Assembly (NCBI RefSeq): GCF_014359565.1
Contig: NZ_JACIZD010000021.1
Span: 1-40,574 of the forward strand
Length of the DNA stretch: 40,574 nucleotides
Source of the DNA: Immundisolibacter sp.
Lineage (GTDB): Bacteria; Pseudomonadota; Gammaproteobacteria; Immundisolibacterales; Immundisolibacteraceae
Reading direction: 5' to 3'
Translations under genes and position numbers: made by a program
Part shown: piece after piece, positions 37,042-40,574 of the stretch
Layout: each line of letters begins with the position of its first letter
How positions within the stretch are numbered: the stretch's first letter is position 1
The notes under the pieces: model-generated
The model's input: the letters and a program-made list of their open reading frames with translations, nothing else
Told to the model about the DNA's origin: nothing
The model's database searches: none

Positions 37042-38778
37042 ATGAAATCCGTGTCATCCCCTGTCGTGAAGGCGACCGCCAAAGCGCCGACCGGTATCGC
37101 CGGGTTCGACGACATCACCGGCGGCGGTTTGCCATGCGGTCGCACCACGCTGCTGGTGGGCGGACCGGGCTCCGGCAAGACCATACTCGCGCTGCAATTC
37201 CTGGTGCACGGCGCGCAGGCTTGCAAGGAGCCGGGCATCTTTGTCGCTTTCGAGGAGGCTTCCAAACGCATTGAGGCCAACGCCGAGAGTTTCGGCTGGA
37301 AGCTCGATGAACTGCGCCGACGAAAAAAACTGTTCTTCGTGGACGCCCAACCGGTGCCCGACCGGGTGCAGTCGGGGGATTTCGATCTGGGCGGGATGTT
37401 GGCGGCGCTGGAGGCGCAGGCCCGGGAAATGGGGGCGCGGCGCATCGTGTTTGACGCCCTGAATATCGTACTGGCGCTGCTGCCCGACGCGGCGGCAAAA
37501 AGGCGGGAGATCTACCGACTGCATGAATGGTTATTGGCGCGTGAACTGACCGGCCTCATCACCTTGCAAGCGGGCGGGGATGAGGCGGGTGCCGGCAGCC
37601 AGAAGCCATTCGGCTTCATGCAATTCATGGTGGACTGCGCCGTGATCCTCAACCACAGCGTGGTACAGGGCGTGTCGCAGCGCAATCTGCGCGTGCAGAA
37701 GTATCGCGGCTCCAGCTTCGACGAGGATGAAGCGCCGTTCCTGATCGGCAAAAGCGGACTTGAGGTAGCCGTCGCGCGTACACCGGGCCGTGTGGACGCC
37801 AAGGTGAGTCACGAGCGCGTTTCCAGCGGCGTGGAGCGGCTCGATACCATGCTGGGCGGCGGCTACTACCGTGGCGCCAGCGTGCTGATCACCGGCTCCC
37901 CCGGCACCGCCAAAACGACCTTGAGCGGTGCGTTCGCTGAGGCGGCCTGTCGGCGCGGCGAGCGCACCCTGTTCGTCAGTTTCGATTCGGAATATACCGA
38001 GGTGATCCGCAACCTGGCCTCGGTGGGGATCCAGCTGAATCCTTACATGAAGAACGGTTGCCTGCACATGATCCCCGCCCGCACCATCACCGGCAGTGCC
38101 GAGATCTACCTGTGGCGCATCAAGACGCTGGCCAAGGAGCATGGCGCCCGCTGCCTGGTGATCGACCCGGTCTACACCTGGTCAAAATCCGGCAATGAGG
38201 CGACCGCGCACAGCGTGGTGGAACGGTTGATCGACTGGTCGAAGGCCGACGGCATCACGCTGCTGTGCACCAGCCTGCTCGATGAAATGTCCGGCCGCAC
38301 CGAGGGCGGCTCGCCGCTGCAGATCTCGGCGCTTGCGGATACCTGGATTCACCTGAATCATCTGGTGCAGGCCGGGGAGCGCAACCGGGGCATGTCGATC
38401 ATCAAGTCCCGCGGCACGGCGCATTCGAATCAGGTGCGCGAGCTGATCCTGAGCGACGCGGGGGTGACGCTGACCGACACCTACACCGCCGGCGGCGAGG
38501 TGTTGATGGGCACGCTGCGCTGGCAAAAGGAAAGCGCCGACCGGGTCGCCGACGAGGTCGATGAAGTCGCCGAAAAACTCAAGCGCGTCAGGCTCGATGC
38601 CGAGGAGGCCGAGCTTGAGGTGCGAGTGAAGTCACTGCAGGTGGAACTGGAGGCCAAGCAGGCCGAGAAAGCCTTGTTGGTCCGTACCATGGAGAGTCGC
38701 GCCGGGGATTTGTCGCGAGACCGCACTCGGATGGGGGAGTTGCGCGGGGCCGATGCGGCCATTCCGGAGCCCAAGTGA
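37042..38778 (+). CDS. kaiC: KaiC-family double-domain ATPase
   Basis: A 578-residue protein with two RecA-like domains. CI has P-loop GGPGSGKT at 40-47 and the paired Glu in FVAFEEASKR. CII has P-loop GSPGTAKT at 285-292, but the position of the catalytic Glu pair reads FDSEYTE, and the autophosphorylation pair Ser431-Thr432 of the cyanobacterial clock protein corresponds to Ser429-Ala430 (LQISALADTW). After residue ~500 a long charged coiled coil follows (DEVAEKLKRVRLDAEEAELE). In cyanobacteria KaiC keeps circadian time with KaiA and KaiB; in other bacteria related proteins act in stress or signalling. No kaiA is present. kaiB follows after 7 bases. Confidence 0.93.
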   Translation: MKSVSSPVVKATAKAPTGIAGFDDITGGGLPCGRTTLLVGGPGSGKTILALQFLVHGAQACKEPGIFVAFEEASKRIEANAESFGWKLDELRRRKKLFFVDAQPVPDRVQSGDFDLGGMLAALEAQAREMGARRIVFDALNIVLALLPDAAAKRREIYRLHEWLLARELTGLITLQAGGDEAGAGSQKPFGFMQFMVDCAVILNHSVVQGVSQRNLRVQKYRGSSFDEDEAPFLIGKSGLEVAVARTPGRVDAKVSHERVSSGVERLDTMLGGGYYRGASVLITGSPGTAKTTLSGAFAEAACRRGERTLFVSFDSEYTEVIRNLASVGIQLNPYMKNGCLHMIPARTITGSAEIYLWRIKTLAKEHGARCLVIDPVYTWSKSGNEATAHSVVERLIDWSKADGITLLCTSLLDEMSGRTEGGSPLQISALADTWIHLNHLVQAGERNRGMSIIKSRGTAHSNQVRELILSDAGVTLTDTYTAGGEVLMGTLRWQKESADRVADEVDEVAEKLKRVRLDAEEAELEVRVKSLQVELEAKQAEKALLVRTMESRAGDLSRDRTRMGELRGADAAIPEPK

Positions 38779-38785
38779 GCGCGCC

Positions 38786-39076
38786 ATGAAGCGCCCGAAC
38801 CCGTTCAAGTTCCGGCTTTATGTCGCAGGCGACGCGCCGAATTCCGCACAGGCGCTCGCCAACCTTCGCACGCTATGCCGGGTCCACCTGCCGGATCGGC
38901 ACCAGATCGAAGTCGTGGATGTGTTCCGGGAACCGAAACGCGCGCTGGCGGACCGCGTCTTCCTGACACCGACCCTGGTCAAGCTGGCACCGGGCGCCAC
39001 CCAAATAATTGTCGGCACCCTCAGCCACACCCAGACGGTGTTGTGGGCTCTGGGGCTGGAAACCCTCGCCCCATGA
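38786..39076 (+). CDS. kaiB: KaiB-family protein
   Basis: A 96-residue thioredoxin-like KaiB. FKFRLYVAGDAPNSAQALANL, IEVVDVFREPKRALADRVFLTPTLVKLAPG and VGTLSHTQTVLWALGL match the family along its length. KaiB binds the CI ring of KaiC; fold-switching regulates that in cyanobacteria. The ATG at 38786 was chosen because family similarity begins there; an earlier in-frame start overlaps kaiC. Its TGA overlaps the ATG of the following sensor gene by three bases (ATGA), so the two are translationally coupled. Confidence 0.92.
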   Translation: MKRPNPFKFRLYVAGDAPNSAQALANLRTLCRVHLPDRHQIEVVDVFREPKRALADRVFLTPTLVKLAPGATQIIVGTLSHTQTVLWALGLETLAP

Positions 39077-40449
39077 AGTTGGGCAAATCCCCCCCGCCTG
39101 GGGAGCCGACTGAGGAAGTTTCCGCGTTGATCGAGGCGCTGCACGACACCGCGCGGCGCCTGGAGGATCTGACGGCGGGCGAGGTGGATGCGGTAACGAA
39201 CCGGAGTGGCCGGACCATCCTGTTGCGGCGCGCCCAGGACCAGCTGCGACGCCGCGAGACGGCCAAGCAGGCCGCCATCCTCAATGCGCTGCCCGCGCAC
39301 ATCGCCCTGCTCGATACGCAGGGGATCATCGTCACGGTAAACGAGGCCTGGCAACGATTTGGCCGCGCGAATGCGCTTCAGGGCCCAGGTCATGGGGTCG
39401 GCGTCAACTACCTCGAGATCTGCGACAACGCACGTGGAGATGACGCATCCGAGGCCAAGCAGGTTGCCGCCGGCATTCGTTCAGTGCTGGGTGGCGCGCT
39501 GAAGAGCTTCTCGGCCGAGTATCCCTGTCATTCGCCAACGGTGCAGCGCTGGTTCCTGATGACGGTGACGCCCCTGGCGGATGACCGTCCAAATGGCGCC
39601 GTGGTCATGCACATGGACGTGACGGCACGCAGACAGACCGAAGAAAACCTGCATGCCAGCGAGTTGCGCTTTCGGCAGATGGCGGAAAACATTCGCGACG
39701 TGTTCTTCCTGATCGACGCCGACAACGGCCGCACGTTGTATGTCAGTCCCACCTACGCGCAGATATTTGGCCGCAGCTGCGAAAGCGCGTACGCCGATGC
39801 TGAATCGTGGACCCAGGCGATCCGCGCGGATGAGCGGACATCGATCTACGAGAAATACAAGAAAGGGATGTCGGAGGGGAGGTTCGATCTCGAGTACCGG
39901 ATCGTGCGCCCGGATGGATTGATTCGGTGGATCGAGGCCAGAGGCTTTCCGATCCGCGATGCCGCCGGCAGGATTGTACGCGTCGCAGGTCTCGCCGCGG
40001 ACGTCACCGTACGCAAGGAAGCGGATGACCGAATCCGCCGCCTGAACCGGGTGTACGCAGTGCTCAGCGGCATCAATGCGCTGATCGTGCGCGTGCGCGA
40101 CCGGGACGAGCTGTTCCGGGAGGCGTGCCGCATCGCCGTCGAGGATGGCGGGTTTCGCATGGCCTGGATAGGCATCGTCGATCGCAGCGAGATGAAGATT
40201 GTTCCGCTGACCTCGGCGGGTATCAATGCCGGCTTCATGGAGGAGGTGGGAGAGCGGTTGTCGTTGCGCGATGACGCGCCCGCGGGGCATGGCGCACCCG
40301 CGGTGGCGGTCAGGGAGAAGCGGGCGGTGGTCGTAAATGACGTGTATGACCATCCACTCATTCATTACAGCAGCGCGCACATCGAGCGCGGCGTTCGTTC
40401 ACTGGCGCTGCTGCCCCTGTTGATCGCTGATGAACCCGTTGCCGTACTC
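39073..40449 (+). CDS. PAS-PAS-GAF sensor protein, truncated by IS30
   Basis: An open frame of 459 codons runs from an ATG overlapping the kaiB stop to the IS30 junction at 40450. It has a short N-terminal helix (EEVSALIEALHDTARRLEDL) and a PAS domain at ~75-190 (ILNALPAHIALLDTQGIIVTVN). A second PAS with PAC segment sits at ~195-315 (DVFFLIDADNGRTLYVS, WIEARGFPIRDAAGRIVRV). A GAF domain starts at ~325 (VYAVLSGINALIVRVRDRDELFREACRIAVE). The output domain (histidine kinase or GGDEF/EAL) is missing because the insertion sequence interrupts the GAF domain. It is probably the signalling partner of KaiC-KaiB, now inactivated or altered. Confidence 0.85.
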
Positions 40450-40574
40450 CTTGGATTCAAGAATCAAGTGCAACACGATTTGAGAAATTGGCGATTTCTT
40501 CGGCCATGGCTTCGTCCGGTGTTCTCCAGTCCAAGGTTTTTCGAGGACGGCCGTTCAGAAGCCGGGCGATGTCG
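40450..40574 (-). mobile_element. IS30-family insertion sequence, right end (partial, second copy)
   Basis: This is identical to the reverse complement of 30-154. The transposase tail is on the minus strand, with the TGA stop at 40457-40459, and runs off the window. The element inserted into the GAF-domain coding region of the sensor gene; CTTGGATTCAAGAATCAAGT is the inner terminal sequence. The target duplication cannot be seen because the other flank is outside the window. Confidence 0.85.

Follow-up and report, generated by a model that had tools for sequence, protein, structure and literature searches.

The window examined here, a stretch of 40,574 nucleotides of Immundisolibacter sp. DNA taken at its full length, encodes a KaiC in which the kinase site of the second ATPase domain (CII) has been rebuilt. 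On balance, we favor the interpretation that this is a KaiB-dependent coiled-coil KaiC, the CII domain of which has been remodeled and conserved in that remodeled form, and which lacks the canonical two-site phosphorylation cycle. The hallmark of the clade to which it belongs is a set of changes, namely Asp-Ser in place of the catalytic Glu pair, an Ala in the P-loop and a Glu at position 320; the Ala at the second phosphorylation position (A430) is not part of this set. The phosphorylation of KaiC is regarded as central to the bacterial clock. In this clade, the kinase site was rebuilt stepwise, from Glu-Glu (EE) through Asp-Glu (DE) to Asp-Ser (DS) with E320 and the P-loop Ala, after which one acceptor was free to vary, with CI, KaiB and the coil retained. 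The DS clade can hence be viewed as a natural experiment on the purpose of KaiC phosphorylation. The features of the gene are:

37042–38778, + strand: kaiC, an intact open reading frame of 578 aa coding for a double-domain CI–CII protein with a C-terminal coiled coil
37159–37182, + strand: CI Walker A motif GGPGSGKT (residues 40–47), intact
37252–37257, + strand: CI catalytic Glu pair E71-E72, with F-E-E kept
37894–37917, + strand: CII Walker A motif GSPGTAKT (residues 285–292), with Ala290 for the Gly before the Lys
37984–37992, + strand: CII D315-S316-E317 at the catalytic/Mg-binding Glu pair (E318/E319 in S. elongatus, E302/E303 in R. sphaeroides)
37999–38001, + strand: E320, a candidate relocated carboxylate at the S. 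elongatus Q323 position, one helical turn past the lost pair
38164–38166, + strand: CII Walker B Asp375, kept
38326–38331, + strand: S429-A430, aligned with the S431-T432 phosphorylation positions
38341–38343, + strand: T434, a Thr close to the P-site loop and a possible alternative acceptor
38404–38412, + strand: CII trans finger K455-x-R457 (K457/R459 of S. elongatus), kept
38500–38754, + strand: C-terminal helix or coiled coil (residues 487–571; helix prediction and 8dba alignment), corresponding to the dodecamer coil of R. sphaeroides

A ribosome-binding-like GGGAGG lies immediately 5′ of the ATG at 37042. The protein scores 473.6 bits against the KaiC family NF006799 (NCBIfam; curated cut-off 408) and matches PF06745 in two stretches, pointing to two RecA-like ATPase domains, in line with a fold match to KaiC structures; against the circadian KaiC equivalog TIGR02655, it reaches 271.5 bits, below the cut-off of 546. 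Its best PDB match in a phmmer search is the R. sphaeroides KaiC 8dba (E=9e-100, residues 13–552, with the coil within the alignment), and a fold search likewise returned the dodecameric KaiC-RS as the top match over 565 columns. As the AlphaFold model has a pTM of 0.45 and uncertain domain placement, its geometry was left unused. The long-helix C-terminal extension that marks the coiled-coil KaiC group (R. sphaeroides type, KaiC2-like) is present as a predicted helix of 85 residues, close to the coil of about 75 residues noted in an earlier reading of the sequence alone (hereafter the sequence-only reading). The Ser-Ser acceptor pair of that group is replaced by Ser-Ala in the window KaiC and mostly by Ser-Thr in its relatives. 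The same reading had CI retaining its P-loop and catalytic Glu pair, and both GGPGSGKT and F-E-E are indeed present in the alignment.

In CII, residues 313–324 align without gaps across the window protein (SFDSEYTEVIRN), the R. sphaeroides KaiC (SFEEAADQAVRN) and 8zn6 (AYEESRAQLLRN), a designed cyanobacterial-type KaiC. This alignment sets F314-D315-S316-E317 against F-E-E-A in R. sphaeroides and Y-E-E-S in the cyanobacterial type, thereby bearing out the earlier claim that the Glu pair of the latter lies opposite FDSE, with E318/E319 replaced by D315/S316. In the P-site loop (QISALADTW in the window, GLSSLMDGW in R. sphaeroides and HISTITDTI in 8zn6), S429-A430 lies opposite Ser-Ser and Ser-Thr, respectively, as had also been proposed for the phosphorylated pair S431/T432. 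Hence, the window KaiC has neither the CII catalytic Glu pair (D315-S316) nor the adjacent Ser/Thr acceptor pair (S429-A430) of phosphorylation-cycling KaiCs. An alignment artefact as the source of these differences was rejected because the motif region is gap-free against three kinds of KaiC. The sequence-only reading had further recorded a CII P-loop as present; one is, albeit not an ordinary one, as GSPGTAKT has an Ala where Walker A has a Gly. It overlooked two CII changes, the P-loop Gly to Ala and Q323 to Glu320. Given that the P-loop Lys291, the Walker B Asp375 and the Lys455/Arg457 finger are all kept, CII is likely to bind nucleotide.

The consequences can be gauged from characterized KaiCs. 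The catalytic Glu of the S. elongatus KaiC is E318, which activates T432 and S431, and Mg ion A is bound by E319; a third site is T426, which aligns with S424 of the window protein. Rhythm is lost in both E318A and E318D, with a lack of phosphoryl transfer stated for E318A alone (PMC2777353). For the R. sphaeroides KaiC, S414 has been proposed as the first residue to be phosphorylated (PMC10076222); its counterpart in the window protein is A430. Judged by these site roles, the window KaiC thus lacks the acceptor used first as well as the usual base and the usual Mg ligand. It shares with the S. elongatus KaiC of the KaiABC oscillator the CI active site, the CII Walker B Asp, the trans Lys/Arg finger and the S431 position, but differs from it in E318/E319, T432 and the P-loop Gly, all of which are replaced, and in having a long coil for the KaiA-binding tail. 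The Rhodobacter (Cereibacter) sphaeroides KaiC, part of a KaiBC hourglass timer (8DBA/8FWI/8FWJ; PMC10076222), is likewise a double-domain protein with a C-terminal coil of ~85 residues, comes in a kaiC-kaiB-signaling gene order and does not need KaiA. However, it has E302/E303, S413/S414 and a normal GAGK P-loop in CII, is 33–37% identical to the window protein and has an HWE histidine kinase as its output gene. The Rhodopseudomonas palustris KaiC (PMC4794148) also has a long C-terminal tail and a three-gene kaiC operon with kaiB in the absence of KaiA, but, unlike the window protein, it has TSS sites, EE pairs in both domains and a daily phosphorylation rhythm in light–dark cycles.

Poorly kept acceptor pairs have been described before: in the passages considered here of the Ramlibacter genome paper (PMC3164672), a “third group” of proteobacterial KaiCs with SA, SF, AF and other pairs was suggested to be incapable of a timing cycle. 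Those passages give this group a mixed gene context and tie an adjacent kaiB to an ST/SS group, whereas the DS clade has kaiB adjacent; their account of the third group yielded no description of a Glu-pair or P-loop change. A literature search on residue Q323 found nothing. Thus, S-A sites in KaiC are already described, and the conserved set of D-S, E320 and P-loop Ala was not found in the literature examined.

A scan of 84,980 species, with one genome for each, using six peptide patterns, none of which spans position 430 or 315–320, recovered 69 loci, mostly from Betaproteobacteria (Nitrotoga, Sulfuritalea, Rhodoferax and others) with some from Gammaproteobacteria (e.g., Methylomonas), nearly all of whose KaiCs show 58–83% identity. 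The EE and DE comparison sets were drawn from class-wide and phylum-wide searches and plasmid records. Among 65 DS-type KaiCs, position 315 is Asp in 64, position 316 is Ser in 57, Thr in seven and Ala in one, Ala290 of the P-loop is present in every member, and S429 is kept in 64. For D315, the P-loop Ala and E320, conservation to this extent goes beyond chance. Position 430 is Thr in 40, Ala in 14, Lys in five, Ser in four, and Met and Glu in one each, as against Ser/Thr in 44/45 EE-type KaiCs, the exception being a Patescibacteria record (L071). Hence, Ser-Ala, the conservation of which the sequence-only reading had marked for a survey, is a minority state within the clade, and we rejected it as a clade signature. 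The Lys variants, which place a charge where Thr is usually phosphorylated, beside the conserved Ser, occur in Nitrotoga and a related MAG (L006, L008, L012 and L013) and in L003. Mean column identity within the clade is 0.84 for CII, 0.80 for CI and 0.92 for the A-loop/linker; with CII above CI, it is not a decaying or ruined domain. The A-loop region is variable among EE types, and its strong conservation in the DS clade suggests that the connection between CII and the coil is under selection there.

A quick tree of 95 KaiCs, with the motif columns excluded and L071 left out, places the D(E/S) proteins in a clade with support of 100, outside of which lie the EE-type coiled-coil KaiCs, including that of R. 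sphaeroides. Within it, the DE proteins branch first and the 63 DS-type proteins form a single clade with support of 99, implying that the E318-to-Asp change preceded E319-to-Ser. The order of changes is therefore from EE to DE, accompanied by P-loop Gly to Ala/Ser, and then from DE to DS, accompanied by Q323 to Glu. Parsimony on this quick tree counts 12 losses of the second-acceptor hydroxyl (position 430) in DS (tree length 14.9) versus none in EE (19.1), and a single loss of the first acceptor of the pair; by our own arithmetic, under equal rates, the probability of all 12 falling in DS is ~5e-5. Column 430 is one of six, among 109 columns conserved in EE (at most two changes), that change at least 15 times in DS. 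Since several of the remaining five are loop positions, the relaxation of column 430 is a strong tendency rather than a unique signal.

These patterns bear on whether CII is still a kinase. One could propose a relocated active site, wherein D315 would serve as the general base, E320 would replace the Mg-binding Glu, and S429 would be phosphorylated in a single-site clock-like cycle here, with S429 and T430 both being targets in most relatives. We regard this as distinctly less probable than the favored interpretation, though deserving of serious consideration. E320 is present in all 65 DS-type proteins, as against Gln at this position in 43 of the 45 EE-type proteins and a mixture in the DE group; it thus appears together with the loss of the second Glu. 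The near-invariance of S429, the presence of Ser/Thr at position 430 in 44/65 and the high conservation of CII are also in keeping with such an active kinase. On the other hand, position 430 has repeatedly changed to Ala, Lys, Met or Glu in the DS clade, a pattern absent from the EE part of the tree, and E318D by itself abolishes the S. elongatus rhythm. A further point against residue 320 reaching the phosphates is that, in RecA, adenine is contacted by the residue lying four positions past the catalytic Glu.

Phosphorylation on another residue, such as T434 or S424, with two acceptors persisting, appears to us highly improbable. All 65 DS-type proteins have a Thr at position 434, which varies among the EE types, and S424 aligns with the third site of S. 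elongatus (PMC2777353). Yet Thr at position 434 is also common in the EE types (26/45), the characterized members of which use the usual pair, and position 424 is not strictly kept, being Ala, Leu or Gln in 5/65.

Several of these observations temper the favored interpretation of a KaiC without the two-site cycle: an Asp is able to act as a base, and E318D is not among the mutants stated to lack phosphoryl transfer (PMC2777353); E320, which came in as the second Glu was lost, may supply a carboxylate again; and most clade members still have Ser-Thr, which an ancient loss of all phosphorylation would make surprising. The altered-CII reading made from sequence alone is thus to be qualified, in that its Ser-Ala pair does not define the clade, E320 and Asp315 leave room for a remodeled rather than a dead site, and T434 lies nearby.

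The remainder of the locus is directly downstream of kaiC:

38786–39076, + strand: kaiB, 96 aa (PF07689), directly after kaiC
39073–40449, + strand: 5′ part of the output gene (PAS-PAS-GAF), which in relatives continues into GGDEF-like and EAL domains
40450–40574, + strand: terminal part of an IS30-like insertion sequence, present in multiple copies, that interrupts the output gene; identified by repeat matches

The kaiB product scores 74.3 bits against PF07689 (gathering score 27), and falls below the cut-offs of the circadian KaiB equivalogs TIGR02654 (55.6 vs. 145.3) and NF006798 (57 vs. 110). In the DS-clade loci whose DNA extends far enough, kaiC is followed by kaiB, and the operon takes the form kaiC-kaiB-(PAS-PAS-GAF-degenerate GGDEF-EAL), with a receiver sometimes added in relatives; the association of kaiC-kaiB with GGDEF/EAL or kinase genes was noted already in 2011 (PMC3164672). 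Of the 37 complete downstream proteins with an EAL domain, all have intact EAL motifs, but GGDEF survives in only five and mostly reads GADHF (e.g., the degenerate GGDEF next to an intact EAL in L014, L031 and L051). About ten relatives display a histidine-kinase motif instead. A downstream histidine kinase, our first reading of the PAS-PAS-GAF part, was dropped in light of the GGDEF-like and EAL domains in most relatives and on contig C27 of the same genome. Hence, the operon probably acts, as a rule, through a c-di-GMP phosphodiesterase.

In this genome, the output gene is split. Its 3′ half, with GADHF and intact EALIR and DDFGTG motifs, is found on C27 and begins exactly where the window half ends (residue 616 of the homologue in L054). 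The repeat from 40450 occurs at nine places in the assembly, mostly close to contig ends, and has 22/27 terminal inverted repeats with CTC at either side; its translated ends resemble what we take to be an IS30-family transposase. Up to 36591, the window is colinear with the sister genome G001, as is C27 from a point just past the end of the EAL gene (92% on both sides), which shows by a separate route that the two contigs adjoin. As only 224 bases separate these flanks in G001, kaiC-kaiB-output is a presence/absence cassette, present here and absent there; this kaiC was likewise not found in the other searched genomes of the genus and family. With its output gene split by the insertion sequence, the kai module may be disconnected from its usual output in this genome. 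The earlier suggestion of signaling rather than timekeeping thus fits the signaling operon of the relatives, but the usual route may be off in this bacterium. The interrupted gene and the lack of the cassette in the sister genome could also be taken to mean that kaiC itself is drifting here, with T430A as one sign of decay. This we consider improbable: the kaiC and kaiB reading frames are intact with the key residues of the clade kept, relatives whose output genes are whole can have Ala430 too, and D-S, the P-loop Ala and E320 date far back and extend across the clade.

Returning to the favored interpretation of a KaiB-dependent KaiC with a remodeled CII, a mechanism can be sketched. CI would hydrolyze ATP and, in its post-hydrolysis state, bind KaiB, as suggested by its intact residues, their conservation and the adjacent kaiB. 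CII would probably still bind ATP/ADP through the P-loop Lys/Thr, the Walker B Asp and the trans Lys/Arg finger. With the general-base Glu changed to Asp, the Mg-ligand Glu to Ser and the first acceptor (T432/S414) to Ala, the ordered two-site cycle would be gone, and any remaining phosphorylation would be slow and confined to S429. The nucleotide state and the binding of KaiB would then carry the signal onward by way of the strongly conserved A-loop and coil, with the output in relatives being the control of c-di-GMP breakdown by the PAS-PAS-GAF-(degenerate GGDEF)-EAL protein, or a hybrid histidine kinase. This agrees with the earlier proposal of an ATPase/KaiB-binding module, the cycle of which is lost or limited to a single serine, insofar as the CI and KaiB-binding parts are intact, the Glu pair is gone and one usual acceptor position is left. 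More tentatively, and with somewhat less than even confidence, we propose that the whole widespread lineage is without CII autophosphorylation and acts as an ATP/ADP- and KaiB-controlled switch over c-di-GMP breakdown. The DS clade probably links KaiB-KaiC to c-di-GMP in non-photosynthetic bacteria and, were such a phosphorylation-independent switch real, KaiB-KaiC signaling would be able to run without a phosphate clock.

Our searches also uncovered some divergent KaiCs. In L067 (7001–8254; Methylotuvimicrobium buryatense 5G), and also in L075, an in-frame loss of residues 236–395 has removed the CII nucleotide-binding half; the resulting L067 protein of 417 aa has Ser-Ala and joins CI to the P-site loop, A-loop and coil. 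The KaiCs of L094–L096, L100 and L134, for which no kaiB was found nearby, combine a CII D-E with a normal P-loop Gly and a Tyr at the second acceptor; thus, the E-to-D change has also occurred outside the DS/DE clade. Finally, L039 (3474–5183) codes for a second, divergent KaiC directly upstream of its DS-type kaiC operon.
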